DNA of 51,387 bases from Lachnospiraceae bacterium (GTDB lineage: Bacteria; Bacillota; Clostridia; Lachnospirales; Lachnospiraceae), in NCBI GenBank assembly GCA_017962105.1, contig JAGCVY010000102.1, forward strand, positions 1-51,387. The letters run 5' to 3'. The first letter of the stretch is position 1. Every line of letters starts with the position of its first letter. Under the pieces are notes generated by a model. It worked only from the letters and a program-made list of their open reading frames with translations. It was not told where the DNA came from and did not search any database. Below are positions 4,760 through 51,387 of this stretch, piece by piece. Position numbers and translations under genes: made by a program.

Positions 4760-6873
4760 GTGCTCCGGGCGGGGCACAGGCGAAACAAAGGGTGATCGTC
4801 GCAAAGACAGCAGGATTCTGCTTCGGCGTACAGCGTGCGGTTGACAAGGTTTACAGCCTGAGTGAGGGCGAGCACGGTCTGGTTTACACCCTCGGGCCCA
4901 TCATCCACAACGAGGATGTTGTGGCGTCGTTAGCCAAGCGCGGCGTGCGCGTGATCACGGACATTGACGAGGTCGACGGAGGAGCTTCCGGGAATAAAGG
5001 CGGGATCACGGAGGGAACCATCGTGATCCGGTCCCACGGGATCCCGAAGCGGACCGAGGAACGGCTTCTGGCCGCGGCGGAAGCGTCCGGCGGGAAACTG
5101 AAGATCGTGGACGCCACCTGCCCCTTCGTGAAGAAGATCCACCGCATCGTGCGGGAACACAGTCTCGCCGGTGAAAAAATCGTTATTTGCGGAGACTCCG
5201 CGCATCCCGAGGTTCAGGGGATCATGGGGTGGTGCGAGGGCGGCGCCGCTGTGGTTTCGACGGCCGAAGAGGCGCAGGAAACAGCGGAAAATGCTGCAAA
5301 GACAAACCAAAGACTGTGTATTGTTGCGCAGACCACGTTTAACTATACAAAATTTAAAGATTTTGTTGATATTTTCCGAAAAATGGGTTACAATGCAGAG
5401 GATAGTGCGGTTAACACTATCTGCAATGCCACAGAGGAGAGACAAACGGAGGCGCGGTCCCTTGCCAGGCAGTGTGACGCAATGCTTGTCATCGGAAGCG
5501 CGAACAGTTCCAACACCCGAAAGCTATATGAAATCGCGGCGCAGGAATGTCGAAATACGCGGTATATACAATCTGCCGCGGATTTGGAGAAGGAACCCAT
5601 ACCATCTTTTCGTTACGTAGGTATTACTGCGGGGGCGTCCACCCCGAGAAACATTATCGAGGAGGTTCATGCAATCATGGACAATGAGATTTTTGAGCAG
5701 TTGTTGGAGGAATCCTTCAAAACAATACGAAACGGAGAGGTAGTCGAGGGCACTGTCATTGGTGTTAAGGAAGATGAGATTGCACTGAACATCGGTTACA
5801 AAGCCGACGGTATCATCACGAAGAACGAATACTCGTCGCAGCCTGTTGCGGATCTCCGCACCGTTGTTAAGGAAGGAGACGTGCTCACCGCGAAGGTGAT
5901 CAAGGTCAATGACGGAGAGGGCCAGGTGCTTCTTTCCCGCAGAAGACTGAACAGCGAGCGTGCAAGCGCCGTTTTGCAGGAAGCGTTTGAAAACGGAACC
6001 GTGCTCACCGCGAAGGTAACGAACGTGGTGAACGGCGGTCTGAACGTAGTAGTGGATGACTGCAGGGTGTTCATCCCCGCAAGTCTTGTTTCGGATATTT
6101 ACGAGAAGGATCTCACGAAGTTCCAGGATCAGGAGATCGAGTTCCGCATTACCGAGTACAACCCGAAGAAGAGACGTATCATCGGTAACCGCAGGGATCT
6201 GATCGTGGAGCGCAAGAAGGAGAAGACCGAGGAGCTGCTTTCCCGTCTTCAGGTCGGCGATGTGATCGAGGGCGTTGTCCGCAACGTTACGGACTTCGGT
6301 GCATTTATCGACATCGGCGGCGTTGACGGACTGCTTCATGTGTCCGAGGTTTCCTGGGGTCGCAACGACAACCCGAAGAAGCTGTTCAAGACCGGAGATA
6401 CCGTTACGGTGTTCGTGAAGGACATTAAGGGCGAGAAGATCTCCCTCAGCATGAAGTTTGCGGATCAGAACCCCTGGAAGGTTGCCGAGGAGCGTTTCGC
6501 AGTCGGTGAGATCGTTACGGGCCGCGTAGAGCGCATGACCGCGTTCGGAGCGTTTGTTTCCATCGCACCCGGCGTTGATGCACTTCTGCATGTATCCCAG
6601 ATCTCCCGCAAGCGCGTGGAGAAGCCTGCGGATGTTCTTTCCGTCGGTCAGGAGATCGAGGCTAAGATCGTGGAGTTCAATCCCGAGGAGCACAAGATCA
6701 GCCTGAGCCTGAAGGCGATCGAGGCTGAGGAGCCCGAGGATGAGGCTGCACCGGCTGAGGAGGCTGTTGCAGATCAGGAGCAGGAAGCCGTTGCTGAGGA
6801 GCCCGCAGCAGAAGCTGCTGTTGAGGAAGCACCTGCAGCAGAGGAAGAGCCTAAGGCGGACACGGAAGCATAA
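4756..6873 (+). CDS. ispH-rpsA: Fused 4-hydroxy-3-methylbut-2-enyl diphosphate reductase / ribosomal protein S1
   Basis: Residues 1 to about 295 are IspH, the [4Fe-4S] enzyme that makes IPP and DMAPP in the MEP pathway. The cluster cysteines are Cys22 (AGFCFGV), Cys122 (DATCPFV) and Cys223 (NTICNAT). Residues from about 308 are an S1 protein with four S1 repeats beginning near GEVVEGTVIG, GTVLTAKVTN, GDVIEGVVRN and GEIVTGRVER. An acidic Ala/Glu-rich tail ends the protein. The same fusion is known in other clostridia. The GTG start at 4756 overlaps the cmk stop and has no strong Shine-Dalgarno site, so translation is probably coupled. The DNA at about 5330-5620 is more AT-rich than its surroundings and holds an internal promoter and start. 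Confidence 0.95.
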   Translation: MSAPGGAQAKQRVIVAKTAGFCFGVQRAVDKVYSLSEGEHGLVYTLGPIIHNEDVVASLAKRGVRVITDIDEVDGGASGNKGGITEGTIVIRSHGIPKRTEERLLAAAEASGGKLKIVDATCPFVKKIHRIVREHSLAGEKIVICGDSAHPEVQGIMGWCEGGAAVVSTAEEAQETAENAAKTNQRLCIVAQTTFNYTKFKDFVDIFRKMGYNAEDSAVNTICNATEERQTEARSLARQCDAMLVIGSANSSNTRKLYEIAAQECRNTRYIQSAADLEKEPIPSFRYVGITAGASTPRNIIEEVHAIMDNEIFEQLLEESFKTIRNGEVVEGTVIGVKEDEIALNIGYKADGIITKNEYSSQPVADLRTVVKEGDVLTAKVIKVNDGEGQVLLSRRRLNSERASAVLQEAFENGTVLTAKVTNVVNGGLNVVVDDCRVFIPASLVSDIYEKDLTKFQDQEIEFRITEYNPKKRRIIGNRRDLIVERKKEKTEELLSRLQVGDVIEGVVRNVTDFGAFIDIGGVDGLLHVSEVSWGRNDNPKKLFKTGDTVTVFVKDIKGEKISLSMKFADQNPWKVAEERFAVGEIVTGRVERMTAFGAFVSIAPGVDALLHVSQISRKRVEKPADVLSVGQEIEAKIVEFNPEEHKISLSLKAIEAEEPEDEAAPAEEAVADQEQEAVAEEPAAEAAVEEAPAAEEEPKADTEA
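5366..5394 (+). promoter_or_regulatory. Internal sigma-A type promoter in ispH-rpsA
   Basis: TTGATA (5366-5371), a 17-base spacer and TACAAT (5389-5394) differ from consensus by one base in each box. It lies inside the IspH half of the fusion, about 285 bases before the internal S1 start at 5677, so it could drive a short rpsA-only transcript. The prediction is from sequence alone. The octamer ATTTTCCG begins at the last base of the -35 box. Confidence 0.6.
5661..5679 (+). promoter_or_regulatory. Internal ribosome-binding site and ATG for free S1
   Basis: GGAGG (5661-5665) stands 11 bases before an in-frame ATG at 5677. Starting there would give a 398-residue protein beginning MDNEIFEQLLEES and running straight into the first S1 repeat, much like a stand-alone clostridial S1. 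The ATG is codon 308 of the fused gene. That this start is used is inference. Confidence 0.55.
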
Positions 6874-6900
6874 TAGTCAGTAAAACGAATGTGGGAACAG

Positions 6901-6934
6901 GAGCACATTGGGGTATCCCCATTGTGCTCTTTTC
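6901..6934 (+). terminator. Intrinsic terminator after ispH-rpsA
   Basis: A 13-base stem with one mismatch (GAGCACATTGGGG against CCCCATTGTGCTC) and a three-base loop is followed by TTTT. It sits between the rpsA stop and plsX. I see no clear promoter for plsX after it, so read-through may supply plsX. Confidence 0.75.
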
Positions 6935-6969
6935 ACTTGAAAAGCGGCCGGGCCGCAGGGAGGAACAGG

Positions 6970-9048: not shown

Positions 9049-12000
9049 ATGTATCTCAAAAGCATAGAAGTACATGGCTTCAAAGCATTTGCCAACAAGA
9101 TCCGTTTCGAGTTTGACGGCGGGATCACGGGCATCGTGGGACCCAATGGAAGCGGTAAGAGTAACGTCGCCGATGCGGTGCGGTGGGTGCTCGGTGAGCA
9201 GAGCGCGAAGCAGCTGCGCGGAAGCAGCATGCAGGATGTCATATTTTCCGGCACGGAGACCCGCAAGCCCATGAGCTTTGCTTACGTGTCGCTGACTCTT
9301 GACAACAGCGATCATGTTCTTCCGATCTCTTACGAGGAAGTGACCGTCGCGAGACGCGTGTACCGTTCCGGCGAGAGCGAGTATCTGATCAACGGGGCGG
9401 AATGCCGGCTTCGCGATGTTCAGGAACTATTCTTTGACACCGGTATCGGCAAGGAGGGCTACTCCATCATCGGTCAGGGCCAGATTGACAAGGTGCTGAG
9501 CGGAAAGCCGGAGGAGCGCCGGGAAATCTTTGACGAGGCCGCGGGGATCACGCGAGTCAAGAAGAGAAAACTGCAGACTGAGAAAAATCTCGCGGAAGAA
9601 CGTCAGAACCTTGCCCGCGTAAACGATATCATCGCCGAGATCGAAGGGCGGCTGGAGCCGCTTGCCAAACAGGACGAGAAGGCGAGGGAATACCTGAAGC
9701 TTCGGGAGGAACTCAGGGACCGCGAGGTCAACCAGTTCCTTATGGAGTATGAGAAGAACATCGTTCTCAAGAAGGAAAATGATGAGAAGCTGGAGTCCGT
9801 CTCGGCTGATCTCGCCAAGGCGACCGAGGACTATGAGAGAGCCAAGGACGAGTACGACCGTCTTTTGAATGAGCTGGAACAGCACCGGGAGGCGCTTTCC
9901 GCGGCGAAGGAGAAGAATTCCCAGAACCGCATTGAGGCGGAGAAGGGAAGCGGCGAGCGGAACGTGCTCACGGAGCAGGTCGCAACCCTGACGAAGCAGG
10001 CGGAGCAGGCCGAGGAGCGCATCGTTCAGCTGAACAACCGGATCGCCGAGCGCGAGGAGGAACTTGCGCAGTATCAAAGCCGGCAGGAAGAGTACGCAAA
10101 ACAGCTGGCGGAGCTGGCCGGCGCAAAGGAAGCCGCGGAGGCGAAGCTCGGCGAGATGAAGGCCGAGATCGACCGCAGGATCACGCAGGAGCAGGAGCTC
10201 CGCGCATCCCAGATCGCCTTCCTGCAGAGCAATACGGAACTAAAGACGGAACTGGAGCGCAACAATACGCTCTTGGAGCAGCATGCCATCAGCAAGGCGG
10301 AGACCAACGCCAAACTGCTGCAGTTCAAGACCGAGGCCGACGAGGCCAACCGGAAGATCGCTGAGGCGGAGAAGCAGCTCGCGGACATCGCCGAAAGTGT
10401 TGTGAAGATGCAGAGCGACGCATCGGAGCGGGATGATAAGATCCGTTCCCTCAGCGAATCCATTGCAGACGCCTCGGCCCGGCTGGAGGATGTGCGCAAG
10501 AGGGCAACCCTTGCGGAGACAAAGTTTGAGACCCTCCGAAATCTTGCTGAGCGGTATGAGGGATATGCCGGAACGGTCCGCAAGGTGATGGAGGAGAAGG
10601 CGAAACGCAAGGGAATCCACGGCGTTGTCGCCGATATCATCCAGACCGAGGAACGCTATGAGACAGCCATTGAGACGGCACTCGGCGGCAATATCCAGAA
10701 CATTGTCGTGGACAACACGGACACGGCGAAGCAGCTCATTGAACATTTGAAGCGCAACAAACTCGGCCGTGCCACGTTCCTTCCGCTTCGGGAGATCCGG
10801 GCGAAGAAGGACGAGTTCGAGCCTGCCGTTTTCAAGGAGCCGGGGGTCTTGGGGATCGCCTCAGAACTAGTGAGCACCGAGGAGGAATACCGCGAGGCTG
10901 CGGCGTATCTCCTGGGAAGATTCCTGGTGGTCGACACGATCGATCACGCCATAGCCCTTGAGAAGAAATACAAGCAGAAGATCCGCGTCGTCACCCTTGA
11001 GGGCGAGTTGTTCGCCCCCGGCGGTGCGGTGTCCGGCGGTGCGTTTAAAAATGCGGGAAATCTGCTGGGACGCCGCCGGGAAGCCGAGGAGTCCGAGAAA
11101 GAATTTTCCGAGCGGAAGAAAGAGGCGGAAGCCTGCGAGCGCACGGTGAACCGCTACCGCAAGGAGCGGGAGTCGCTTCGGAACGAGCAGGAGCTGCAGC
11201 GCGGCGTTCTGCAGGAGAAAATGCTGGAGCGCAACACGGCGGAGATGAATCTGCAGCACGTGAAGGAGCAAAACGGAGGACTCCTTGAGACAAGGGAATC
11301 CCTTCGGAAGGAAGTCTCCGACGCGGAGGCGGAGATCGAGCGCATCCGTTCCGCCAACCGGGAACTGCAGGAGCAGATTGCGGCCAACGAGGAGCAGAGC
11401 GGGAAGGACCGGGAAACCGCAGACCGTCTCCACGAGGAGATGGAGGAGATCCGGGGACGTCAGGACGAGGCCAGCGCGGAAGCGGTGCGCACCCTCACGG
11501 AATACAACGGACTGCTCCAGAGCGTGGAATACCAGCGCGACACCGGTGCACGGATCGAGCGGGAGCGCACACAGTACCGCAGTGAGCTCGCGGATGCAGA
11601 GCAGAGTCTGGCGGAGACGAAGAAGGAAATCGAGGAGCGATCCCAGGCCATCCGGGAGATCGAGGAGCGGCAGTGCGAACTGCAGCGCGATATTCAGAAC
11701 GGGGAGGAGCAGATTGCGGAGCTGACGAAGCTGGCGGAGGACATCACGAAGCAGAACCGCGATTTCTTCGAGCGCCGGGAGAGCCTGTCCCGCACCATGA
11801 GCGGCCTTGACCGGGAGCAGTATCGTCTGCAGGGCCAGAAGGAGAAGATGGAGGATCAGCTCGAGTCGAACACCCGCTATATGTGGGAAGAGTACGGGAT
11901 GACCTACACCGAGGCCTGCGAACACCGGAGCGAGGAATACAACAATCCGACCCTGAACCGCAAGGCGGTTTACGAACTGAAAAATAAGATCCGCGGCCTC

Positions 12001-12609
12001 GGCAACGTCAATGTCGAGGCGATCGAGGAATACCGCGACGCCAAGGAGCGCTACGAGTTCCTGACCAGACAGCGCAAGGATATCCTCGATGCGGAGACGA
12101 CGCTTTCCGGCATCATTTCCGCCCTTGATGAGGAGATGCGGAAGCAATTTTCCGAGACCTTTGAACAGCTCAAGGTGCGCTTTGACCGCGTGTTCCGCGA
12201 ACTGTTCGGCGGCGGCAAGACCACCCTTTCCCTGAGCGAGGGGGAGGACGTACTTGAGGCCGGAGTACTGATCAATGTACAGCCGCCCGGCAAGAAACTG
12301 CAGAATATGATGCAGCTCTCCGGCGGTGAGAAGGCGCTGACGGCGATCGCACTTCTGTTTGCGATCCTCGATCTGAAGCCGTCACCGTTCTGTCTCCTCG
12401 ACGAGATCGAGGCGGCCCTCGACGACAGCAATGTCGGCCGGTTTGCGCAGTACCTGCACAAGCTGTCCAAGGATACGCAGTTCATTGTGATCACACACCG
12501 GCGAGGCACCATGTCGGCGGCGGAGGCCCTGTACGGAATCACGATGCAGGAGAAGGGCGTTTCCACCCTCGTGTCGGTCAACCTGATCGAGAACGAATTG
12601 GATCAATAA
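9049..12609 (+). CDS. smc: Chromosome partition protein SMC
   Basis: SMC is the ATPase arm of the condensin-like SMC-ScpAB complex that compacts and segregates chromosomes. The 1186 residues have the expected plan. The head opens with MYLKSIEVHGFKAFA and Walker A GPNGSGKSN (31-39). Two long coiled coils rich in Glu/Lys/Arg flank a hinge at about residues 515-670 (KGIHGVVADII, LGGNIQNIVVD, GGAVSGGAF). The C-terminal head has LSGGEKALTAIA and Walker B FCLLDEIEAALDD. The start has GAAGGAGACAG upstream. ftsY follows after 18 bases. Confidence 0.97.
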   Translation: MYLKSIEVHGFKAFANKIRFEFDGGITGIVGPNGSGKSNVADAVRWVLGEQSAKQLRGSSMQDVIFSGTETRKPMSFAYVSLTLDNSDHVLPISYEEVTVARRVYRSGESEYLINGAECRLRDVQELFFDTGIGKEGYSIIGQGQIDKVLSGKPEERREIFDEAAGITRVKKRKLQTEKNLAEERQNLARVNDIIAEIEGRLEPLAKQDEKAREYLKLREELRDREVNQFLMEYEKNIVLKKENDEKLESVSADLAKATEDYERAKDEYDRLLNELEQHREALSAAKEKNSQNRIEAEKGSGERNVLTEQVATLTKQAEQAEERIVQLNNRIAEREEELAQYQSRQEEYAKQLAELAGAKEAAEAKLGEMKAEIDRRITQEQELRASQIAFLQSNTELKTELERNNTLLEQHAISKAETNAKLLQFKTEADEANRKIAEAEKQLADIAESVVKMQSDASERDDKIRSLSESIADASARLEDVRKRATLAETKFETLRNLAERYEGYAGTVRKVMEEKAKRKGIHGVVADIIQTEERYETAIETALGGNIQNIVVDNTDTAKQLIEHLKRNKLGRATFLPLREIRAKKDEFEPAVFKEPGVLGIASELVSTEEEYREAAAYLLGRFLVVDTIDHAIALEKKYKQKIRVVTLEGELFAPGGAVSGGAFKNAGNLLGRRREAEESEKEFSERKKEAEACERTVNRYRKERESLRNEQELQRGVLQEKMLERNTAEMNLQHVKEQNGGLLETRESLRKEVSDAEAEIERIRSANRELQEQIAANEEQSGKDRETADRLHEEMEEIRGRQDEASAEAVRTLTEYNGLLQSVEYQRDTGARIERERTQYRSELADAEQSLAETKKEIEERSQAIREIEERQCELQRDIQNGEEQIAELTKLAEDITKQNRDFFERRESLSRTMSGLDREQYRLQGQKEKMEDQLESNTRYMWEEYGMTYTEACEHRSEEYNNPTLNRKAVYELKNKIRGLGNVNVEAIEEYRDAKERYEFLTRQRKDILDAETTLSGIISALDEEMRKQFSETFEQLKVRFDRVFRELFGGGKTTLSLSEGEDVLEAGVLINVQPPGKKLQNMMQLSGGEKALTAIALLFAILDLKPSPFCLLDEIEAALDDSNVGRFAQYLHKLSKDTQFIVITHRRGTMSAAEALYGITMQEKGVSTLVSVNLIENELDQ

Positions 12610-12627: not shown

Positions 12628-13890
12628 ATGTTTTTCTGGAGAAAAAAGAAACCCGCGGAGACGGAAGAAGTGCTTCCGCAGGAGGAAGCAGCGGAGGAAT
12701 CCGCGGAAACGTCTGTCGAGGCGGATCTGCCGGAGGGCGGTGAGCCTGCGGCGGAGACAGCCGATATGATATCCTATGACGGGTACGAAGAGGAGGCTGA
12801 AGCGGAGGACGCCGCAGAGGCCGCGTTCACCGGCAACGGGGACGAGATCATTTCCGAAGAGATCGGGCAGAATGCGGAGGCATTTTCCGGGGAGTACGAG
12901 GAGACGGACGATCCCTTCGCTGCAGCGGAGGAAGCGGCAGAGGAGAAACCGGTCAAAAAGAAGGGCTTCTTCAAACGCCTTTTCGCCGGTATGAGCAAGA
13001 CGAGAAACAGTCTTGCCGACGGACTTCGCTCGCTGTTCGGCGGAAGTAAGATCGATGAGGATTTCTATGAGGAACTCGAGGAAATCCTGATCATGGCGGA
13101 TATCGGTGTCACCACGACGGAGGGCATCCTGGAGGGACTCCGCGCAAAGGTGAAGGAACAGAAGATCAAGGAACCCGCGGAGTGCAGGGACCTTTTGATG
13201 GCGACGATCCGCGAGCAGATGGCGGTTCCCGACGACGCGTACGAGTTTGAAAACCACCCGTCCGTGATCCTGATGGTCGGCGTGAACGGCGTCGGAAAGA
13301 CCACGACCTGCGGCAAGATCGCGGGCTCCCTCAGGGCCGACGGAAAGCGCGTTCTTCTTGCGGCGGCGGATACGTTCCGCGCTGCCGCGACGGAGCAATT
13401 GGTGGAGTGGTCGCACCGCGCGGGCTGCGAGATCATTGCAGCCAAGGAAGGTGCGGACCCGGCTGCGGTTGTATTTGACGCCGTGACGGCTGCCAAGGCA
13501 CGCAAAGCCGATGTGCTGATCTGCGATACCGCCGGACGTCTTCACAATAAGAAGAACCTGATGGATGAACTCGGAAAGATCAACCGCGTCATCGACCGCG
13601 AGTATCCCGACGCGCACCGCGAGACCTTTGTTGTCCTCGACGGAACAACCGGACAGAACGCCCTCGTACAGGCGCGGGAGTTCAATGAGATCGCCAACAT
13701 CACCGGCATTGTCATCACGAAGCTGGACGGCACCGCCAAGGGCGGGATCGCCATTGCGATCCAGAAGGAGCTCGGCATTCCGGTCAAGTACATCGGCGTC
13801 GGCGAGAAGATCGACGACATGCAGAAATTTGATCCCGACGCTTTCGTTGAGGCGCTGTTTGAGCCTGTCGGCGAGACCGTTTCAGAATAA
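12628..13890 (+). CDS. ftsY: Signal recognition particle receptor FtsY
   Basis: FtsY is the membrane-associated GTPase that receives SRP-ribosome complexes for co-translational insertion. The first 115 or so residues are an acidic Glu/Ala-rich region typical of the A domain, ending in a basic stretch (KPVKKKGFFKRLF). The NG domain has the P-loop GVNGVGKTTT near residue 217, DTFRAAATEQL, DTAGRLHNK, TKLDGTAKGG and the closing GVGEKIDDMQKFD. Length is 420 residues. ATG 12628 has GAGGAGAACC. It is the last gene of the plsX operon, and a strong terminator follows 17 bases later. Confidence 0.96.
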   Translation: MFFWRKKKPAETEEVLPQEEAAEESAETSVEADLPEGGEPAAETADMISYDGYEEEAEAEDAAEAAFTGNGDEIISEEIGQNAEAFSGEYEETDDPFAAAEEAAEEKPVKKKGFFKRLFAGMSKTRNSLADGLRSLFGGSKIDEDFYEELEEILIMADIGVTTTEGILEGLRAKVKEQKIKEPAECRDLLMATIREQMAVPDDAYEFENHPSVILMVGVNGVGKTTTCGKIAGSLRADGKRVLLAAADTFRAAATEQLVEWSHRAGCEIIAAKEGADPAAVVFDAVTAAKARKADVLICDTAGRLHNKKNLMDELGKINRVIDREYPDAHRETFVVLDGTTGQNALVQAREFNEIANITGIVITKLDGTAKGGIAIAIQKELGIPVKYIGVGEKIDDMQKFDPDAFVEALFEPVGETVSE

Positions 13891-13932: not shown

Positions 13933-14174
13933 GTGCTTTCCATGCCGGATTGGCGAAATGCCACAAAAACGAAGAAGGATTTTCGGCACTCTGCCCCCAC
14001 AGATCGGTAATCGTCGGAAAATGCCCCGCGCCCCGTAGAAAATAAAGACGTTTCTTTGGCAGGTCTGCGAATGGATTTTTGCCGCGGGATAAGGTACGAT
14101 AAGGACGGTTTCAAAGGGGAGAACGACTGGGTTCGACGCTTCGGAAAATTTTTCACATTCTTCGTTTTTTAGGA
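13933..14174. other. Spacer between ftsY terminator and recA promoter
   Basis: I see no convincing gene in these 242 bases. Open frames on the minus strand run through it but have no ribosome-binding site or recognisable product. It holds two copies of the dispersed octamer in CGGAAAAT orientation (14015-14022, 14142-14149). Confidence 0.6.
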
Positions 14175-15261: not shown

Positions 15262-15915
15262 ATGCAGATTACCAACCTGACACCGAAAGGAAAACGCCAG
15301 ACCGTGATCTGGCTGGACGGCGAGCCGGCGGGATTTCTGGACAACCGTGATGTGTCCTCTTACCGACTGGAAATCGATACGTCGATCTCCGAGGCAGACT
15401 GGGAGAAGATCGTCAGCGAGGTCATCCTTCCCCGGGGGAAGCGCAAGGCGCTGGAACTTCTGCAGGTGCAGGACCGGACAGTCAAGGAACTCCATGAAAA
15501 GCTTCTGGCATCGGATTACTCGGAATCTCAGTCCTGGGAGATCATCGCGTACGTCGCCTCGTTTCATTACATTGATGAACAGCGCTATGCAGTGAATTAC
15601 GTCCGCGCGCACGCAAAGACGAAGAGCGCCCGTGAGATGCAGATGGTGCTGATGCGCAAAGGGATTGAGCAGGACATTTTCCGAAACGCTTACGAGCAGT
15701 ACCAAACGGAGAGTTCCGATGCGGACGACGGCGAGGAGGAAGAGAGTCCAGAGATTGCTGCCGTGAGGCAGTTTGTCGCCAAGCGCGTGCGGGGCAATTC
15801 CATGAGCGAAAAGGAGCGTCAGAAGATCTATGCAGGACTCCAGCGGAAGGGCTTCGCAGGGGATGCTATACGTCGCGTCCTGTCGGAATACGAATGGACC
15901 CGATCCGAAGAATAA
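15262..15915 (+). CDS. recX: Regulatory protein RecX
   Basis: RecX binds RecA filaments and limits their growth. The 217-residue protein starts one base after the recA stop, with CGAGGAG inside the recA end as its ribosome-binding site. It has the family's repeated three-helix pattern, visible in DEQRYAVNYVRAHAKTKS near the middle, MVLMRKGIEQD and the final LQRKGFAGDAIRRVL. Sequence conservation in this family is low, so position beside recA is a large part of the argument. A terminator follows. Confidence 0.88.
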   Translation: MQITNLTPKGKRQTVIWLDGEPAGFLDNRDVSSYRLEIDTSISEADWEKIVSEVILPRGKRKALELLQVQDRTVKELHEKLLASDYSESQSWEIIAYVASFHYIDEQRYAVNYVRAHAKTKSAREMQMVLMRKGIEQDIFRNAYEQYQTESSDADDGEEEESPEIAAVRQFVAKRVRGNSMSEKERQKIYAGLQRKGFAGDAIRRVLSEYEWTRSEE

Positions 15916-21420: not shown

Positions 21421-21588
21421 GTTTATGTTGAAACGGCTTTACGCAATACGGAAAATATAGTAGAATACCTTTTAAAGACGGAAAATAGTGGTTATTCTCA
21501 GATACTGAGAGTGATTTACGGTTTGCGGGGTGGTCTTTCTTCTCTCAGAACCGTAGAATGAGGCCAAAAAACGGAGGTGATCACGTAT

Positions 21589-33421: not shown

Positions 33422-33450
33422 TTGCATTTTCCGAAGAAGTTTGTTAATAT
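33422..33450 (+). promoter_or_regulatory. Predicted rpmB promoter
   Basis: TTGCAT (33422-33427), 17 bases and TAATAT (33445-33450); TATACT at 33448 is an alternative -10. The -35 overlaps the dispersed octamer ATTTTCCG (33426-33433). Confidence 0.5.
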
Positions 33451-40563: not shown

Positions 40564-41310
40564 ATGAACAAGTTGTACATTGTGATCCCCGCGTACAACG
40601 AGGAAGCCAACATTGAGACCGTGATCCGGGAGTGGTACCCGATCATCGAGGAGCGGAGCGAGGAGAGCCGGCTGGTCGTCATCGACGACGGCAGCAAGGA
40701 TTCCACCTACGCGATCATGCAGCGCCTCGCGGAGACCATGCCGAAATTCATCCCGCTCACGAAGCCCAACGGAGGGCACGGTGCGACGGTTTTGTACGGA
40801 TACCGCTATGCCCTTGACGCGGGCGCGGATTACGTGTTCCAGACGGATTCCGACGGTCAGACAAGACCCGCGGAGTTCGCGCAGTTCTGGGAGAAGCGGG
40901 AGCAGTACCATATGGTCATCGGACACCGCAAGGGCCGTCAGGACGGATTTTCCCGAGTGATCGTCACGAAGACCCTGAAGCTGGTCTGCCTGCTGTGCTT
41001 CCACGTCCGCGTGAAGGACGCCAACACGCCGTTCCGTATCATGCAGGCGGAGTACCTGAAGAAGAACCTGGAGGTTATCCCGGAAAATTACAACCTTCCG
41101 AATGTTGTCCTTTCGGTTCTGTACGCAAAGAAAAAAGAGCCCGTGCTCTACATTCCGATCACGTTCCGTCCCAGACAGGGCGGCGTGAATTCCATCAACA
41201 TGAAAAAAATCTTTAAGATCGGGAAGCAGGCCTGGAAAGACTTCCGTGAGATCAACCGCTGCATCAAGCGCAGCATGAAGGCGGAGAAAGAGGAGAAGGA
41301 GAAGAAATGA
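40564..41310 (+). CDS. Family 2 glycosyltransferase, polyprenyl/dolichyl-phosphate sugar synthase type
   Basis: This 248-residue cytosolic GT-A enzyme probably moves a sugar from a nucleotide donor to polyprenyl phosphate. It starts LYIVIPAYNEEANIETVI and has LVVIDDGSKDST, the donor-side FQTDSDGQT and RPRQGGVNSINM near the end. There is no C-terminal membrane anchor. ATG 40564 follows AGGAGGGAG. The stop overlaps the next gene's ATG, and both neighbours are large membrane proteins that could use the lipid-linked sugar it makes. Confidence 0.88.
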   Translation: MNKLYIVIPAYNEEANIETVIREWYPIIEERSEESRLVVIDDGSKDSTYAIMQRLAETMPKFIPLTKPNGGHGATVLYGYRYALDAGADYVFQTDSDGQTRPAEFAQFWEKREQYHMVIGHRKGRQDGFSRVIVTKTLKLVCLLCFHVRVKDANTPFRIMQAEYLKKNLEVIPENYNLPNVVLSVLYAKKKEPVLYIPITFRPRQGGVNSINMKKIFKIGKQAWKDFREINRCIKRSMKAEKEEKEKK

Positions 41311-43955
41311 ACAACGGAAAGAGATATACCTATCTGTACGCCACCGTATTTGCAGTCTTCCTGTTTTTCCTGTTCTTTTCCCTCGGACTGCACTACCTTG
41401 GCTCTTCGGATTTTTCCTATGTGCTTCGCTGGTGGCTCACGCTTCTGATCCTCGGCCTGGCATTCCAGCCGCTGACGATCGTCATTTTCCGCAATCTGCG
41501 GGACGGCGGCTGGCTGTTCTCGAAGACGCTTGGAATCGCCCTCGCCGGATGGCTGATGTGGTTCCTGTCCTCCTGCAGACTGTTTAAGTTCTCAAGGTTC
41601 AACTGCGCGATCGCCGTGCTTGTGGTGTTCATCATCAACCTGGGGATCTACTATCTGATGGATGTCCGCAAGGCGAGAAAAGCGTCGCTTCGGAAGTTTT
41701 TCACCGATGAGAGAATCTGTGCCATCATCGGCGTCGAGGCGATCTTCTTCTGCGCATTCGTGTTCTGGTGCTACCTGAAAGGCGTCAACCCCAAGGCTTA
41801 CGGCACGGAGCGTTTCATGGACTACGGTTTTATGATGTCCATGTTCAAGTCCGATTACATGCCGCCGAAGGATGTGTGGCTTGCCGGCAAATCCATCAAC
41901 TACTATTACGTCGGACAGTATCTGATGACCTATCTGACGAAACTTGCCGGCGTGCCGGTTGCGCATGGGTACAACATCGCCATGGCGATGCTGGCATCCA
42001 TGGGGTTCGCGCTTTCGTACTCCATCGGCAACAACCTGATGAATATTTATCTGAGTTACCGCAGCAAAAAGAGCTACACGCAGCAGGAGCTGCAGAGGCT
42101 TGCGGAGCTCGGCTCCGTGACGACGGAGAAACAGCCGCAGTTCTTCCGGCCGCTGATGGCGGGAACGCTGTCCGCACTGGCAGTGGCGGTTGCCGGCAAC
42201 ATGCACTACCCGTACTACAAATTCCTCTATCCGAAGCTGCAGCGGCTTTGGGGAGTTGAGGAGGCGGAGATTTACTCCAAATACTGGTTCCCCGACGCTA
42301 CCCGGTATATCGGATACCGTCCGGATGTGCCGGATAAGACGATCCATGAGTTCCCGATTTACTCCTATGCGATCGGAGACCTGCACGCCCACGTTATCAC
42401 CATGATCTTCGTGCTGACCGTGCTGACGCTTCTGATCGCATGGCTCACCTACCGCAGAAGAGCTATGGACATCGTGAGGGATTACGACCGTCGTCCCCGT
42501 ATGCTGGGGTATGTCAAAGAGACGTTCCGCCCCGAACTGGTGCTCTGCGCTTTCCTGGTGGGATTGTTCCAGACGACCAACTACTGGGATTTTCCGATTT
42601 ATTTTGTCGTGTGCGGAGCAGTGATCCTGTTCTCCAACCTGGTTTCCTACCGTTATAAGGCGGAGGCGTGGATCCTGACCGGTTTCCAGGCGGCGATGTT
42701 CCTGGTTGTGGGAGCCATTACCGCGATGCCGTTTACACTTTCCTTCGACAGCATTTCCTCCAGCATCGGGATCAACGACCTGACCCATCACACGTCGCAG
42801 TTCCAGCTGCTGATCCTGTGGGGACTTCCGTTCTTCTGCGTTTGCATGTTCCTTGTGCTGCGGATCCTGGAGTTCGGTGCGGAGAGCAGGGCGAAGAAGA
42901 GTGCGGGCCAGAAGCCGCTTCCGAAAAACCTCGAGTCGGAGGTCATCACGGATGCGGAGGGAGATTCGCAGTACCGCGGCTGGAAGAGCCGTCCGGCAAT
43001 CCAGCGCCTTCTGGACAGCCTTGAGATCAGTGATCTTTTTGTCGTAATCATCGGGCTGTGCGCATTCGGTCTGGTGCTTCTGCCGGAGATCATCTATGTC
43101 GTGGATATTTACGGCGGGGCTTATCAGCGGGCCAACACCATGTTTAAACTGACTTATCAGGCCTTCATCATGTACGGCCTGAGTATGGGATATATCATCA
43201 CCCGGTTTGTGACGATGCCGAGCAGCCGTCTCATGAAGGGAGCGGGAATCTTTGCGATGATCCTTCTTCTGTCCTGCGTGGGATACTTCAACGAAGCCTA
43301 TGTGAACTGGTTTGACGGGTATTACAAGGGCTTGGATGCATCGGCGTTCATCCGCGAGGACTGCAATACCGCGGACGCGGACATCATCGATTACATCAAT
43401 ACAAACATCGACGGGCAGGTGAATATTCTGGAGATGTCCGGGCTGAGCTACACGTACTTTAACCGTATCTCCACATTTACCGGAATGCCCACCGTCCTCG
43501 GCTGGCAGACCCACGAGTGGCTTTGGAGAAGCAGCGGAGCGGACAAAGCGTATCCTCGAATGGTAGCGCACCGCCACGAGGACGTGATCACCCTGTACAC
43601 TTCAAAGGATAAAGCCAAGGTGTCGTACCTGATCGAAAAATACGACCTCGATTACATTTACGTCGGTATCTGCGAGCACGTGGACGGATACGTTGAGGGC
43701 ACGGGAGAAGGCTCCACCTATGTTCAGGGCAAAACCTGCCGGAATATCACGGTCAACGAGGAGCTTTTGAAGAGCCTCGGCGAGGTTGTCAAGGAGGCTC
43801 AGGACAATTCGGGTAACGTTGCGTACCTGATCAAGATCGACCGCGAACTCACGGCGAAGGAAATGTTGTCATATGAGTTGACTGTGGCAGACTTCTCCAA
43901 CGAGTACGAACTTTCTCCGATCAAGGTGAATGTGGACGATTACGCCGCCGAATAA
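41307..43955 (+). CDS. DUF2298 / Chlor_Arch_YYY-type multi-pass membrane protein
   Basis: The 882-residue protein has many hydrophobic segments and the tyrosine triplet motif SINYYYVGQYLMTYL near residue 197, characteristic of the YYY (DUF2298) family of probable membrane glycosyltransferases. Other matching stretches are ERFMDYGFMMSMFKSDYMPPKD, split here as ERFMDYGF and KSDYMPPKD, FPIYSYAIGDLHAHV and QTTNYWDFPIYF. The C-terminal part after the last span is soluble. It overlaps the glycosyltransferase gene by ATGA, so it is a likely user of polyprenyl-phosphate sugars. A terminator follows 30 bases after the stop. The family is known; acceptor and product are not. Confidence 0.82.
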   Translation: MNNGKRYTYLYATVFAVFLFFLFFSLGLHYLGSSDFSYVLRWWLTLLILGLAFQPLTIVIFRNLRDGGWLFSKTLGIALAGWLMWFLSSCRLFKFSRFNCAIAVLVVFIINLGIYYLMDVRKARKASLRKFFTDERICAIIGVEAIFFCAFVFWCYLKGVNPKAYGTERFMDYGFMMSMFKSDYMPPKDVWLAGKSINYYYVGQYLMTYLTKLAGVPVAHGYNIAMAMLASMGFALSYSIGNNLMNIYLSYRSKKSYTQQELQRLAELGSVTTEKQPQFFRPLMAGTLSALAVAVAGNMHYPYYKFLYPKLQRLWGVEEAEIYSKYWFPDATRYIGYRPDVPDKTIHEFPIYSYAIGDLHAHVITMIFVLTVLTLLIAWLTYRRRAMDIVRDYDRRPRMLGYVKETFRPELVLCAFLVGLFQTTNYWDFPIYFVVCGAVILFSNLVSYRYKAEAWILTGFQAAMFLVVGAITAMPFTLSFDSISSSIGINDLTHHTSQFQLLILWGLPFFCVCMFLVLRILEFGAESRAKKSAGQKPLPKNLESEVITDAEGDSQYRGWKSRPAIQRLLDSLEISDLFVVIIGLCAFGLVLLPEIIYVVDIYGGAYQRANTMFKLTYQAFIMYGLSMGYIITRFVTMPSSRLMKGAGIFAMILLLSCVGYFNEAYVNWFDGYYKGLDASAFIREDCNTADADIIDYINTNIDGQVNILEMSGLSYTYFNRISTFTGMPTVLGWQTHEWLWRSSGADKAYPRMVAHRHEDVITLYTSKDKAKVSYLIEKYDLDYIYVGICEHVDGYVEGTGEGSTYVQGKTCRNITVNEELLKSLGEVVKEAQDNSGNVAYLIKIDRELTAKEMLSYELTVADFSNEYELSPIKVNVDDYAAE

Positions 43956-45412: not shown

Positions 45413-45441
45413 ATTATACAGGAAGTGAACGGAAAATGCAA
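45413..45441 (-). promoter_or_regulatory. Promoter of the CorC/HlyC gene
   Basis: On the minus strand TTGCAT, 17 bases and a perfect TATAAT (-10 at 45413-45418, -35 at 45436-45441). It rules out the longer ATG starts. The -35 overlaps the octamer ATTTTCCG (45430-45437 on the minus strand). Confidence 0.75.
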
Positions 45442-45489: not shown

Positions 45490-45591
45490 AGTCTTGGTGT
45501 CGGCATTTTCCGAAGAATGAAGAAAACCGTGGGGCAGGATCATGGAACAATCCGCCGGGGACACGGGCGCCGGCACGGGAAAGGACTGTGT

Positions 45592-46353
45592 ATGCTTGAA
45601 CTGCGAAATGTCAGCTTTACCGTCTCGGATGAGAATGACGGGCTGACGAAAGAAATCATCAAAAATGTATCATTGACAATACAGGACCGCGAGTTTGTCG
45701 CGATCACCGGTCCCAACGGCGGCGGCAAATCTACCCTTGCCCGTCTGATCATGGGCATCGAGCGCCCCACGGGGGGGCAGATCCTCTACAACGGTGAGGA
45801 TATCACCGGACTTTCCATCACGGAGCGTGCAAAGAAGGGTATGGGCTTCGCCTTCCAGATGCCGGTGCGCTTTAAGGGCATCACCGTGAAGGACCTGCTG
45901 ACCCTTGCCTACGGAAGCAAGCTGACCACCTCCGAGGCGTGCCAGTACCTCTCCGAGGTCGGCCTGTGCGCCCGCGACTATGTGAACCGCGAGGTCAACG
46001 CAAGCCTTTCGGGCGGCGAGCTGAAGCGCATCGAGATCGCGACGATCCTTGCGAGAAAGCCGCAATTTTCCGTGTTCGATGAGCCGGAGGCCGGGATCGA
46101 TCTGTGGAGCTTCCAGAACCTGATCCGCATCTTTGACCGCCTTCACAAGGAGATGAACGGCTCCGTTGTCGTCATCAGCCATCAGGAGCGCATCCTCAAC
46201 ATCGCGGACCGCATCGTGGTCATTGCGGGCGGCGAGGTTTTGGAACAGGCGGCAAGCGAGGAGTTGCTGCCGAAAATTCTGAGCGACTCGTTGGGATGTC
46301 TCTTCCACAAGGATGCCGAGGGACTGTCAGCGTTCGGAAAGGACGGTGAGTGA
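45592..46353 (+). CDS. SufC-like ABC ATPase of a minimal Fe-S assembly system
   Basis: The 253-residue cytosolic ATPase has Walker A GPNGGGKST (40-48), the signature NASLSGGELKRIEIA near 136-150, Walker B FSVFDEPEAGID and the switch VVVISHQ. The gene after it encodes a SufB/SufD-family protein, and no transporter permease is present, so it is a SufC homologue working in Fe-S cluster assembly. ATG 45592 has GGAAAGGA; a longer frame to 45517 has no ribosome-binding site. The sufC stop and the first possible sufB start overlap. Confidence 0.88.
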   Translation: MLELRNVSFTVSDENDGLTKEIIKNVSLTIQDREFVAITGPNGGGKSTLARLIMGIERPTGGQILYNGEDITGLSITERAKKGMGFAFQMPVRFKGITVKDLLTLAYGSKLTTSEACQYLSEVGLCARDYVNREVNASLSGGELKRIEIATILARKPQFSVFDEPEAGIDLWSFQNLIRIFDRLHKEMNGSVVVISHQERILNIADRIVVIAGGEVLEQAASEELLPKILSDSLGCLFHKDAEGLSAFGKDGE

Positions 46354-46355: not shown

Positions 46356-47273
46356 ATGGATGCGATCCAGAAGCAGTTGTTTGAACAGATCGCGGACCTT
46401 CATGAGGTTCCGCAGGGCGCTTACAATTTCCGCGTGAACGGCGAGGGCGCGGGCCGCAATACGACGGAAAATATCAACATCATCACGAAGTCGGACAAGC
46501 CCGGCATCGATATCATCATCAAGGCCGGCACAAAGAAGGAGAGCGTGCACATTCCCGTGGTGATCTCCCAGACCGGTCTGCAGGAGTGTGTCTACAACGA
46601 TTTCTATGTCGGTGAGGATGCAGACGTGACCATCGTCGCAGGCTGCGGCATTCACAACCCCGGGGACAAGACCTCGGAGCATGACGGTATCCACACGTTC
46701 CATCTTGCGCAAAATGCCCATGTCCGCTATGTGGAGAAGCACTACGGAACGGGCGAGGGAACCGGTGAGCGCATCCTGAACCCGGAGACGGTGGTGTTCC
46801 TGGACGAGGGAAGCACCCTGGAGATGGATACCGTGCAGATCGAGGGCGTTGATTCTACGGTGCGGAAGACGCGGGCGACGGTGGGAGACAAGGCTTCCCT
46901 TGTGATCCGCGAGAAGATCATGACCCATGACCGGCAGTTTGCGAAGACCGATTTTTCGGTGGAGATGAACGGCGAGGACAGCTCTGTCGACCTGGTGTCC
47001 CGCTCGGTTGCTAAGGACAATTCCCATCAGGAGTTTCTCTCCGAGATCGTGGGAAATAACCGCTGCAAGGGTCATTCCGAGTGTGATGCGATCCTGATGG
47101 ATCACGGTGCGGTTGCCGCAGCTCCGAAGCTGACGGCCAACCATCTCGATGCTTCGCTGATCCACGAGGCTGCCATCGGCAAGATCGCCGGCGACCAGAT
47201 CGTCAAACTGATGACTCTGGGGCTTACGGAGGAGGAAGCGGAGCAGCAGATCATCAGCGGATTCCTGAAGTAA
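46356..47273 (+). CDS. SufB/SufD-family scaffold of a minimal Fe-S assembly system
   Basis: This 305-residue protein is shorter than SufB (about 470). It has the family's beta-helix pattern (GEDADVTIVAGCGIH, LDEGSTLEMDTVQIEG, EDSSVDLVSRSVAKD) and a conserved C-terminal region (NHLDASLIHEAAIGKIAGD, EEEAEQQIISGFL). With the SufC-like ATPase it forms a two-gene SufCB set lacking sufS, sufU and sufD, as in the minimal SMS-type machinery of anaerobes. ATG 46356 is chosen; GTG 46350, overlapping the sufC stop, is an alternative. The nearest cysteine desulfurase gene is 22 kb away. Confidence 0.87.
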   Translation: MDAIQKQLFEQIADLHEVPQGAYNFRVNGEGAGRNTTENINIITKSDKPGIDIIIKAGTKKESVHIPVVISQTGLQECVYNDFYVGEDADVTIVAGCGIHNPGDKTSEHDGIHTFHLAQNAHVRYVEKHYGTGEGTGERILNPETVVFLDEGSTLEMDTVQIEGVDSTVRKTRATVGDKASLVIREKIMTHDRQFAKTDFSVEMNGEDSSVDLVSRSVAKDNSHQEFLSEIVGNNRCKGHSECDAILMDHGAVAAAPKLTANHLDASLIHEAAIGKIAGDQIVKLMTLGLTEEEAEQQIISGFLK

Positions 47274-47359: not shown

Positions 47360-48283
47360 ATGATAAGACAGGAGAACAAAAGAAAAACGGTACGCATGTT
47401 CGTCGTGCTTATGGCGGCGGTTATCGCATGTGTGCTCTCTGCGTGCGGCTGTACGCACAAAAACGGAAGCGGGGATACCACTCCGTCGTCGACGGTGACG
47501 CCGGTGTCAACCGGCTGCGAGGTGCATTTCCTGGCGCTCGGCAAGGCAGATGCGATACTGATCCTTGCGGACGGACATGCGATGCTGATCGACGCGGGGT
47601 ATCAGCACAATGCGGACGAGGTGGTTTCCTACCTGAAAAGCCACGGCGTCAGTAAACTCGATTACGTCATCCTTACCCATGGGGATAAGGATCATGTCGG
47701 AGGAATGGCGGATGTGCTCCGGACATTTTCCGTCGGACAGATGCTGATCAGCCCGAAGAAGGAAAAATCCGACCTGTACGAGGCGATGGTGTCGGCCATC
47801 AAGGAGAAGAATATCTCCTGTGTGTCTCCCGAGGTCGGAACGACCTATGAGCTCGGAACCGGCAGCTTCCAGACGCTGGCACCCGGGCCGAAAGCACTGA
47901 AGGAAGGCTCGGACAACGACGCTTCCATCGCGATCCGGTTTACCTATGGGACCAAGAGCTTCCTGCTGATGGGGGATGCCCTTTCCACCACCGAGAAGGA
48001 GCTGGTGGATTCCTCCCTTTCCATCCGGGCGGATGTGCTTAAGACCGGGCATCACGGCAAGAGCGATGCGACGAACAAGAAGTTTCTTAAGGCCGTCCAG
48101 CCGGGCTACGCAGTGATCTGCTGCGGTGAGTCGGAGGAGGGCGATGAGCCCGGCGAACCGTCCTCGAAGGTTTTGGAGCTTCTTTCGGACTTCCACGTGA
48201 AGACCTTACGTACCGACGAGACGGGGACCATCGTGTTCACCACGGACGGGACAAAACTGGAATGCAATCAGAATGCGGAGTGA
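47360..48283 (+). CDS. Lipoprotein metallo-beta-lactamase-fold hydrolase (ComEC-domain like)
   Basis: The 307-residue protein starts with a lipoprotein signal: basic N-terminus, hydrophobic core and lipobox LSAC with Cys29. A short Gly/Ser/Thr/Pro spacer leads to a metallo-beta-lactamase fold with AMLIDAGYQ, the metal motif THGDKDHVGG, LLMGDA and KTGHHGKSDA. This pattern matches secreted relatives of the ComEC C-terminal nuclease-type domain. It is thus probably an extracytoplasmic, membrane-anchored hydrolase; a nucleic-acid substrate is possible but unproven. ATG 47360 has GATGAGG. cdd follows after 8 bases, which hints at nucleic-acid scavenging. Confidence 0.83.
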   Translation: MIRQENKRKTVRMFVVLMAAVIACVLSACGCTHKNGSGDTTPSSTVTPVSTGCEVHFLALGKADAILILADGHAMLIDAGYQHNADEVVSYLKSHGVSKLDYVILTHGDKDHVGGMADVLRTFSVGQMLISPKKEKSDLYEAMVSAIKEKNISCVSPEVGTTYELGTGSFQTLAPGPKALKEGSDNDASIAIRFTYGTKSFLLMGDALSTTEKELVDSSLSIRADVLKTGHHGKSDATNKKFLKAVQPGYAVICCGESEEGDEPGEPSSKVLELLSDFHVKTLRTDETGTIVFTTDGTKLECNQNAE

Positions 48284-48864: not shown

Positions 48865-48866
48865 CT

Positions 48867-49644: not shown

Positions 49645-49680
49645 AATGCCATGGCTTCCGGGGAGGCCATGGCATTGTTT
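49645..49680. terminator. Bidirectional terminator between the phosphatase and barstar genes
   Basis: A perfect 11-base stem, AATGCCATGGC/GCCATGGCATT, with a ten-base loop. T-rich sequence flanks it on both strands, and the minus-strand run (TTCTTTTTCGTTTTT) is the stronger, so it mainly ends the barnase-barstar unit. Confidence 0.87.
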
Positions 49681-49689
49681 GTTTTGAAG

Positions 49690-49962
49690 TTACATGTGCT
49701 CCGTAAAGGAGAGATTTGCATTTTCCGAAGCCGCATCGCGGATGACCGAAAGGAGCGTCTCGCCGTAATCACCGAGAGAGGCAAGCATCAGGGCTTTTCG
49801 GTAGAGCACAAGGGTTGTCGGCTCGCAGGGGTCAGTGAGGACGTCGTGAAGGGCGTCTAAGTTGCGGCCGTAGTAGGAAGGCAGCTGCAGGCGGAGCGCA
49901 AGGTAATGATGGGTCGCCTCGCGGGTGTTCATATATAAGCCGTCAAGAATGATCGTTCTCAT
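49690..49962 (-). CDS. Barstar-family ribonuclease inhibitor
   Basis: Barstar binds barnase tightly in the cytosol and blocks its active site. The 90-residue protein has the family core: IILDG at the start, THHYLALRLQLPSYYGRNLDAL in two parts (HHYLALRLQLP and YYGRNLDALHDVLTD), then a hydrophobic strand (TTLVLYRKA). The start has AAGAAGG upstream. It lies 51 bases downstream of the barnase-like gene on the same strand, so the pair is a functional unit. The dispersed octamer is present in the coding sequence at 49720. Confidence 0.92.
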   Translation of the reverse strand: MRTIILDGLYMNTREATHHYLALRLQLPSYYGRNLDALHDVLTDPCEPTTLVLYRKALMLASLGDYGETLLSVIRDAASENANLSFTEHM

Positions 49963-50013
49963 GAAAGGCCTTCTTTCTGTAAGGATTTTTTCTTCCGCAT
50001 CGGAGGTGCGGTG

Positions 50014-50748: not shown

Positions 50749-50778
50749 AGGATACCTCCGAAATGTTCGTTCCCTGTA

Positions 50779-50807
50779 ACGATAGCATTTTTGACACGGA
50801 AAATCAA
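50779..50807 (-). promoter_or_regulatory. Possible barnase-barstar promoter
   Basis: On the minus strand TTGATT, 17 bases and TATCGT, with TG one base before the -10 box. The -10 is weak. The octamer ATTTTCCG overlaps the end of the -35 box. Confidence 0.4.
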
Positions 50808-50827
50808 CCATGCCCCTTCGGAATTGT

Positions 50828-50856
50828 TTGCATTTACTGTCATTTCGTGGTATTAT
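50828..50856 (+). promoter_or_regulatory. Predicted ispF promoter
   Basis: TTGCAT (50828-50833), 17 bases and TATTAT (50851-50856), in the divergent space between the barnase gene and ispF. Confidence 0.55.
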
Positions 50857-50986
50857 CGACAGTGTGTGCGCGGTGTGAGGGAGAGGGAGAAACATTCGCT
50901 CCGGAACACTGTAAAACCGCTGTTGGGACAGAGGAAACCGGACGGTCGGAAGATCGGACGAGCCAAGGAAATACGGAGACCAGACG

Positions 50987-51387
50987 ATGATGAGGATCGG
51001 TACAGGATACGACGTGCACCGGCTTACAGAGGGACGCCCCTTGATCTTAGGCGGCGTGACGGTGCCTTTTGAAAAGGGATTGGACGGGCATTCCGATGCG
51101 GATGTCCTGCTCCACGCGATCATGGATGCCCTTCTCGGCGCGTGTGCCCTCGGGGATATCGGGCTTCATTTTCCGGATAAGGATCCGGAGTATGAGGGAA
51201 TTGACTCCCGGGTGCTGCTCCGGAAGGTCGGAGCGCTCATTGCAGAGCAGTGTTACCTGATCTCCAACGTGGATGCCACGATCATCGCACAGCGCCCGAA
51301 GCTTCGGGACTACATCAACGAGATGCGCGGCAATATCGCGGAGGATCTGGGGCTTTCCGTCGATCAGGTGAGCGTCAAGGCGACGAC
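50987..51387 (+). CDS. ispF: 2-C-methyl-D-erythritol 2,4-cyclodiphosphate synthase (3' end missing)
   Basis: IspF closes the cyclic diphosphate ring in the MEP isoprenoid pathway. It is the same pathway as ispH at 4.8 kb. About 133 of the usual 155-160 residues are present. The start [13 protein letters not shown] carries the zinc ligands Asp and His, followed by [21 protein letters not shown] split as LGGVTVPF and [23 protein letters not shown] and, at the window end, VSVKAT. The start may be ATG 50987 or 50990; CGGAG lies about 10 bases upstream. The gene runs off the window. Confidence 0.96.

Follow-up and report, generated by a model that had tools for sequence, protein, structure and literature searches.

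A Frequent Octamer on a Lachnospiraceae Contig

The analyzed stretch of DNA, hereafter called the window, comprises 51,387 bases of contig JAGCVY010000102.1, which is contig 63 of 105 in the 2,587,466-base (2.59 Mb) assembly GCA_017962105.1 of a Lachnospiraceae bacterium. It contains 34 copies of the octamer ATTTTCCG, distributed over both strands between 5285-5292 and 51168-51175. An initial annotation of the window had already singled out this word, with about 34 copies, as over-represented and had compared it to DNA uptake sequences. Genome-wide counts and comparisons with related genomes agree with the former observation and suggest that the word may indeed be a tag for the uptake of DNA.

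According to a simple gene caller, 25 of the 34 copies lie in genes and nine (eight in the initial annotation) between genes; as previously described, genes of both strands and all reading frames are affected. A LytB/S1-domain gene (4792-6873) holds one copy on the reverse (5285-5292, -) and one on the forward strand (5371-5378, +), and smc holds three (9243-9250, 11103-11110, and 12147-12154, all +). An SRP54-type GTPase gene, probably ftsY, contains one copy (12882-12889, +), two occupy the intergenic region upstream of recA (14015-14022 and 14142-14149, both -), and one lies in recX (15676-15683, +). Further intergenic copies are found at 21449-21456 and 21479-21486 (both -) and, if the calls of the gene caller used are followed, at 22413-22420 (+). 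Two copies are located in a NifS-like gene (22994-24187; copies at 23748-23755 and 23822-23829, both -), four in a methyltransferase-like gene (24269-26299; 24669-24676, -; 24925-24932, 25297-25304, and 26244-26251, all +), and one each in a PHP-domain gene (26345-27163; 26374-26381, -) and an NFACT gene (27188-28948; 28127-28134, -). An intergenic copy (33426-33433, +) is followed by copies in gene 33871-34227 (34164-34171, +), recG (36658-36665, +), gene 40564-41310 (41081-41088, -), and gene 41307-43955 (41484-41491 and 42589-42596, both +). The intergenic copies 45430-45437 (-) and 45505-45512 (+) form an inverted pair. The remaining copies reside in genes for an ABC-transporter ATPase (46065-46072, +), a SufBD-like protein (46465-46472, -), and a metallo-beta-lactamase-fold protein (47360-48283; 47725-47732, +), in a small called gene (49690-49962; 49720-49727, +), between genes (50797-50804, -), and in gene 50987-51385 (51168-51175, +).

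Abundance, Selection, and Consensus of the Word

In 100 dinucleotide shuffles of the window, ATTTTCCG occurs 2.85 times on average and never more than eight times, and Markov models predict 4.1 (order 2) or 9.0 (order 4) copies. The whole genome contains 1,839 copies, 922 forward and 917 reverse, which corresponds to 0.71 per kb, versus 23 copies of the word with its letters reversed. Word statistics were obtained from a sample of 422,787 bases that consists of the window and 20 further stretches (approximately 16% of the genome). The sample holds 320 copies versus Markov expectations of 33.0, 43.9, 86.2, 133.5, and 254.5 for orders 2, 3, 4, 5, and 6, respectively, the high orders being trained on pieces of ATTTTCCG itself. 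Agreement with a third-order model had been named in the initial annotation as the outcome that would dismiss the signal; the excess stands, because 320 copies far exceed 43.9. Under orders 2 and 3, CATTTTCC and ATTTTCCG are the first- and second-ranked octamers of the sample, with z scores of about 42-52 versus 18-23 for the octamer ranked third. The short words of the DNA uptake sequence (DUS) and uptake signal sequence (USS) class are likewise present in far more copies than expected, numbering from hundreds to thousands.

Within the 348 called genes of the sample, 242 copies are coding. When synonymous codons were exchanged across the whole sample (200 shuffles), only 20.5 copies (standard deviation 4.1) remained, which is an approximately 12-fold difference. 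Four control words behaved differently (observed versus shuffled: 1 vs 3.6, 18 vs 13.3, 10 vs 36.1, and 13 vs 22.7), and the related words ATTTTTCG, ATTTTACG, CATTTGCC, and CATTTTCC are 4- to 13-fold above their synonymous shuffles. The in-gene copies occupy all six combinations of frame and strand. ATTTTCCG is selected as DNA, and protein sequence does not explain the copies, as had been argued before. Dinucleotide shuffles, the Markov orders, and synonymous shuffles together rule out an artefact of any one null model.

The sites in the window were also compared to seven relatives, with codon-phase-matched neighboring octamers as control. Site conservation exceeds that of the neighboring DNA in five of the seven, namely those in which six or more sites could be aligned, and clearly so in three. 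The conserved sites (control rate in parentheses) are 11/24 in genome G014 (0.200), 7/23 in G005 (0.175), 8/18 in G010 (0.227), 2/6 in G013 (0.256), and 8/20 in G007 (0.111). One-sided Fisher tests yield 0.004 for G014, 0.095 for G005, 0.036 for G010, 0.48 for G013, 0.001 for G007, and 1 for both G002 and G008; these values are rough because the control octamers overlap.

The full word in the sample approximates rCATTTTCCGwa, and conservation fades beyond about positions -2 and +13. Thus, each copy is an isolated short word rather than a fragment of some longer repeat. Variation is tolerated at the sixth letter, where T, A, and G are 4.7-, 5.4-, and 2.7-fold above expectation. The earlier statement that one-base variants are near expectation holds for 14 of the 24 variants of ATTTTCCG (0.3 to 1.25 of expectation) and fails for seven, which are raised 1.9- to 5.4-fold over Markov order 3, while three more reach 1.5- to 1.6-fold. 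The raised variants are ATTTTTCG (115 observed, 24.7 expected), ATTTTACG (71/13.2), ATTTTGCG (52/19.6), ATTTGCCG (55/24.2), and the three substitutions of the final G (46-52 vs 18-27). This pattern is what a tolerant recognizer, or decay from its sites, would leave.

Layout Along the Chromosome

In the sample, 242 copies lie in genes, 73 between genes, and five straddle gene borders. Their density is 0.64 per kb in genes versus 1.70 between them, a 2.7-fold difference (binomial p 2e-11). Orientation relative to genes is balanced (120 copies with, 122 against), as is orientation relative to the local majority gene strand (155 with, 165 against), from which alone the replication strand could be inferred because the assembly is in 105 contigs. 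Neighbors 0.4-8 kb apart likewise show no bias (672 in the same and 718 in opposite orientation).

Among adjacent copies, the ratio of inverted to direct pairs is 12/3 at distances below 60 bp, 8/3 at 60-150 bp, 32/15 at 150-400 bp, 51/41 at 400-1000 bp, and 47/51 at 1-2.5 kb. The inverted pairs closer than 60 bp hold 24 of the 320 copies. Of 70 intergenic sites, 15 have an inverted partner no more than about 40 bases away, one mismatch being allowed, versus 3.3 in the control. Four pairs were folded: a strong hairpin is predicted at L020:8706 (z -4.8) and weaker ones for two other pairs (z -2.2 and -1.9), and the arms of the window pair 45430/45505 pair with each other, yet its overall fold is no better than that of shuffled sequences (z -0.75). 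The lack of orientation bias, the higher density outside genes, and the minority of copies in inverted pairs are shared with DUS and USS. By this analogy, the layout appears uptake-like, and the comparison made in the initial annotation seems apt.

Dialects in the Genus and the Wider Family

The SMC protein encoded in the window is most similar to those of Lachnoclostridium sp. UBA1175 (87%) and Lachnospiraceae RGIG8155 (70%), and these named relatives bear out the placement in the Lachnospiraceae. In a tree of SMC from 20 genomes of the genus (G017 and G020 have no true SMC match), UBA1175 and RGIG8155 are at zero distance from G005 and G009. Whole-genome counts of the words CATTTTCC and CATTTGCC in all 22 genus genomes are 1578/220 in G000, 1260/219 in G005, 1763/334 in G010, 1384/199 in G013, 1672/215 in G014, 1684/273 in G019, 1214/288 in G002, 1202/345 in G003, 1313/437 in G009, 1232/191 in G020, 672/622 in G007, 863/424 in G001, 625/320 in G021, 783/584 in G008, 807/611 in G016, 728/512 in G018, 767/416 in G011, 491/614 in G012, 449/438 in G004, 374/337 in G015, 257/84 in G017, and 221/106 in G006. 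The reversed controls range from 10 to 99 for CATTTTCC and from 52 to 185 for CATTTGCC. In the clade of the window, CATTTTCC is three to eight times as frequent as CATTTGCC, except for G007 (1.1), which lies inside that clade. The sister clade carries both dialects at CATTTTCC/CATTTGCC ratios of 0.8-2.0, and the deep branches hold less. As in the DUS/USS class, dialects with a fixed core thus follow the phylogeny, G007 being the exception.

By whole-genome counts, 19 of the 22 genomes bear the tag, one (G015, graded from these counts) is weak, and two (G006 and G017) are tag-poor. Markov models were computed for ten of these genomes and show enrichment in G000, G001, G004, G005, G007, G008, G010, and G014 and little in G006 and G017; 20 kb samples alone were used for G018, which is weakly raised, and G016, which is not. 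The other genus genomes were judged by whole-genome counts and the reversed control only. In 140 kb of G006, the observed and order 2 values are 27/23.5 for ATTTTCCG, 18/12.8 for CATTTTCC, and 15/7.5 for CATTTGCC, and in 120 kb of G017 they are 15/15.6, 20/8.8, and 3/4.5, respectively. For comparison, CATTTTCC and CATTTGCC reach 41/9.0 and 38/5.4 in G001 and 27/5.6 and 20/4.5 in G004. Among other over-represented words encountered in this genus are words around CAATGGATGG in G006 (L171-L175) and CCCCGTCCCC and CCCCTAACCCC in G004 (L166-L170).

A wider survey covered 397 genomes from 334 genera of the family, with the window's own genus represented by two. CATTTTCCGA occurs 420 times in the window's genome, 174 times in G002, and mostly fewer than 30 times elsewhere. 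Clear outliers relative to the reversed control are G118 (125/4), G421 (96/3), G134 (89/5), G253 (59/1), G403 (47/1), and G337 (45/1); G223 (47/10) and large genomes such as G297 (50/15) and G224 (49/25) are less clear. For the looser word RCATTKNCC, the ratio to the reversed control, assessed by eye from the table, exceeds 4.5 in 12 of the 397 genomes (G000, G002, G118, G421, G134, G199, G253, G278, G301, G304, G337, and G339). This ratio needs Markov support, because the reversed word contains TA and is biased as the sole control. Markov checks on stretches of six other genera support five of them: G118 (66 vs 7.5 expected, with CATTGCCC and GCATTGCCC as top words), G199 (23 vs 2.2; CATTGCCC 18 vs 0.2 in 40 kb), G134 (20 vs 4.1, dialect CATTTTCC), G403 (31 vs 10.8, dialects CATTTGCC and CATTTTCC), and, more weakly, G337 (28 vs 11.2), where other repeats outrank the word. 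They do not support G339: its genome-wide ratio is 8.9, yet 29.6 kb contain 7 copies versus 5.1 expected. The 11 kb sample of G253 is too small to judge. ATTTTCCG is near Markov expectation in G024 (20/15.2), G033 (15/15.7), and G036 (7/7.1).

Some further words were noticed during these analyses. The perfect palindrome TGGCAATTGCCA occurs three times within 3.8 kb of the window (18437-18448, 19160-19171, and 22163-22174), in and after sodium-pump decarboxylase genes; two copies are inside the beta-subunit gene (18328-19917), and none was found elsewhere in the 423 kb sample. CTACTAC is present six times in the window (6046, 27782, 27851, 38448, 49870, and 50053; 0.7 expected) and is also over-represented in the samples of G004, G007, G008, G010, G014, and G118, which may merely reflect rare CTA/TAG in the null model. 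CCTCACTCGG is over-represented in G337 (L281-L284).

Competence and Pilus Machinery

The window's genome encodes a full-length ComEC of 772 amino acids with competence and metallo-beta-lactamase domains as well as ComEA, and recA is located inside the window. A type IV pilus locus comprises PilB-, PilT-, PilC-, PilD-, and PilM-type genes along with five pilins, two of them adjacent, and a large PilX-like protein. Thus, the transformation machinery that accompanies DUS and USS (ComEC, ComEA, and a type IV filament) is present in the host, which is weak evidence because the tag-poor relatives are equipped, too. ComEC was found in 20 of the 22 genus genomes, the two others being 79 and 82% complete. 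The gene is interrupted by stops in G016 (G016:C57:53707-54488), a genome with intermediate motif counts, and is in two pieces in G015. All 18 genomes examined for them, including the 12 most tag-rich, have matches to both ComEC and ComEA, that of ComEA in G016 being below the cut-off. Of all 22 genomes in the genus, 18 have a strong PilB-type match, which in G003 is divided between two contigs, and the pilus locus was found in all 14 genus genomes with a stretch examined, including G006 and G017. Away from this locus, a second PilT-like ATPase gene (L013:6113-7171) has matches of similar strength in many genus genomes. G011 contains two full-length pilB-type genes on contigs C126 and C175, perhaps because of a mixed assembly.

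All 12 aligned tag-bearing genomes, as well as G015 and G011, encode the second of the two adjacent pilins at its full length of 135-148 amino acids. This pilin is shortened to 79 amino acids in the tag-poor G006 (L239:6379-6618) and is full length in the equally tag-poor G017. A role of this pilin as receptor of the tag is a lead only. In profile searches of both pilins versus PDB sequences, ordinary pilins were the top hits, with mainly N-terminal matches.

A Putative DNA Uptake Sequence

Taken together, the word is abundant, asymmetric, and neutral in orientation, is enriched between genes, occurs in part as inverted pairs, tolerates changes at some positions, and has dialects; this combination is the published signature of DUS and USS. 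Neisseria meningitidis and Neisseria gonorrhoeae contain about 1,900 DUS per genome, dialects follow lineage, and Simonsiella muelleri carries two dialects at nearly equal numbers, as stated in PMC3630211. PMC1939737 lists 1,471 USS in Haemophilus influenzae, 65% of them in genes, 35% of DUS in genes in N. gonorrhoeae, and, for the tags of Haemophilus and Neisseria alike, about 10% inverted repeats, an excess in non-coding DNA, and no orientation bias. The word described here resembles the DUS of Neisseriaceae in copy number, in dialects that follow phylogeny, in the coexistence of two dialects in one genome, and in the presence of a type IV pilus and ComEC. It differs in its unrelated sequence, in the Gram-positive host, in the lack of a ComP orthologue above the cut-off, and in being known from genomes alone. 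With the USS of Pasteurellaceae it shares copy number, a non-palindromic sequence, the lack of orientation bias, the non-coding excess, and the minority of inverted copies, but its sequence is unrelated and it has no strong AT-rich downstream tracts, only a weak bias to position +13. CATTTTCCG lacks the cores CTG and GCGG given in PMC12616744 and does not belong to DUS or USS proper. In the same paper, published in 2025, Neisseriaceae and Pasteurellaceae are called the sole families known to have uptake tags. Among the titles and abstract openings listed in searches of the open-licence literature, none reports an uptake tag for Lachnospiraceae or other Gram-positive bacteria, and of the papers listed for the word itself none deals, by its title, with words in bacterial genomes.

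The proposed receptor at the cell surface, probably a pilin from the type IV pilus or from another competence filament, would recognize and bind the tag when it is carried by free DNA. This DNA would then be brought by the filament and ComEA to the ComEC channel, and the entering strand would recombine by means of RecA. Tagged DNA would enter more often, so that uptake and recombination, biased in its favor, would let the tags spread and persist at every place where the sequence permits. A shift in the preference of the receptor could let the tag drift to a new dialect, such as CATTTTCC, CATTTGCC, or CATTGCCC. We infer that the cells are competent, that uptake is specific for the tag, and that a pilin reads it.

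Several observations weigh against this function. ComEC, ComEA, and the pilus locus are also encoded by G006 and G017, which have little or no tag; therefore, the machinery permits an uptake function and does not single out the tag-bearing species. The short second pilin of G006 is the sole difference seen in the machinery, and G017 does not share it. No strong PilB-type match was obtained for G009, G012, G020, and G021 (79-86% complete), among them the tag-bearing G009, G012, and G020. PilT was rejected as a marker of the tag, as strong matches (E <= 1e-90) in 7 of the 12 most tag-rich genomes versus 234 of 397 overall show no association. A ComP orthologue was not found: the ComP_DUS family (PF16732) matches two of 14 first pilins (E <= 0.1), of which the better one stays under the curated cut-off, and no match was obtained for the 14 second pilins. 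The search for a ComP-like pilin by a basic isoelectric point (pI) was equally unsuccessful, with no consistently basic minor pilin among the called pilins; three pilins reach pI 9.3-9.6, those being in G002, in G019, and a 63-residue fragment at the end of a stretch in the tag-poor G006. At the level of sites, G002 and G008 conserve none of three sites each and show no gain over the control, and the excess is not clear in G005 and G013. Finally, spacing is near random (coefficient of variation 0.90 vs 0.98 +/- 0.05), and genes with atypical codon usage, a stand-in for recently acquired DNA in a sample without identified mobile elements, are not depleted of tags (0.68 per kb in the most atypical fifth vs 0.54 in the most typical).

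Among other explanations, the most serious is that ATTTTCCG is the target of an intracellular protein that binds or modifies DNA, such as a methyltransferase or a nucleoid or condensation protein. Scattered copies that show no strand preference and are in excess between genes would also fit a site of chromosome binding, and the tag does not follow the competence genes across genomes. The cyanobacterial HIP1 (GCGATCGC), likewise a highly iterated, chromosome-wide octamer, is linked with orphan methyltransferases, as noted in PMC4390886. However, HIP1 is a palindrome, whereas ATTTTCCG is asymmetric and not its own reverse complement; it would also be unusual for a house-keeping site to change by one letter from one related genus to the next or to coexist in two dialects. 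We therefore regard such a binding or modification site as unlikely. Much less probable still is a recombination hotspot (Chi) or a chromosome-orienting signal of the KOPS or SRS type. These are short, very frequent, non-palindromic words, as is ATTTTCCG, but they work in a single orientation and predominate on the leading strand. No such skew exists here (155/165 by local majority gene strand, 922/917 by strand of the assembly, 672/718 among neighbors), which disfavors the Chi-like and replication-linked options offered in the initial annotation.

The remains of a short mobile or repeat element, or transcription terminators, are similarly improbable as the origin of the word. Some close inverted pairs, such as that at L020:8706, are predicted to fold stably, and inverted partners are more frequent at intergenic sites than in the control. 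Still, there is no conserved flank beyond about -2 to +13, 242 of 320 copies are in genes, such a partner is missing at 55 of 70 intergenic sites, and convergent intergenic regions are not enriched (1.16 per kb, four sites, vs 1.79 and 2.21). Flanks, genic copies, and unpaired intergenic sites thus rule out such elements as the general cause, while a terminator role for some inverted pairs is compatible with an uptake sequence. That codon usage, amino-acid pairs, or base composition generate the excess as a by-product can practically be dismissed. The in-gene copies do favor two readings (E-N in 74 and F-S in 64 of 242), but synonymous shuffling removes most of them, the word read backwards is rare, copies are denser between genes than inside them, and G024, G033, and G036, which lack the signal, are near Markov expectation. 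A third, independently evolved system of DNA uptake sequences with dialects is in our view the probable explanation, stated with some reserve because a site at which DNA is bound or modified irrespective of strand might produce a very similar pattern.

The broader proposal would be that the Lachnospiraceae have evolved uptake sequences of their own, with at least three dialects (CATTTTCCG, CATTTGCCG, and CATTGCCCG) in several genera, which are read by a pilin unrelated in sequence to ComP and bias transformation toward kin in the gut; to this we assign an even chance. If true, this third case would be found in a cell without an outer membrane, and sequence-specific uptake would not depend on an outer-membrane pore. 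It would also point to natural transformation in gut anaerobes, which are genetically hard to manipulate, and would offer several dialect-bearing genera in which the origin and change of uptake sequences could be studied.

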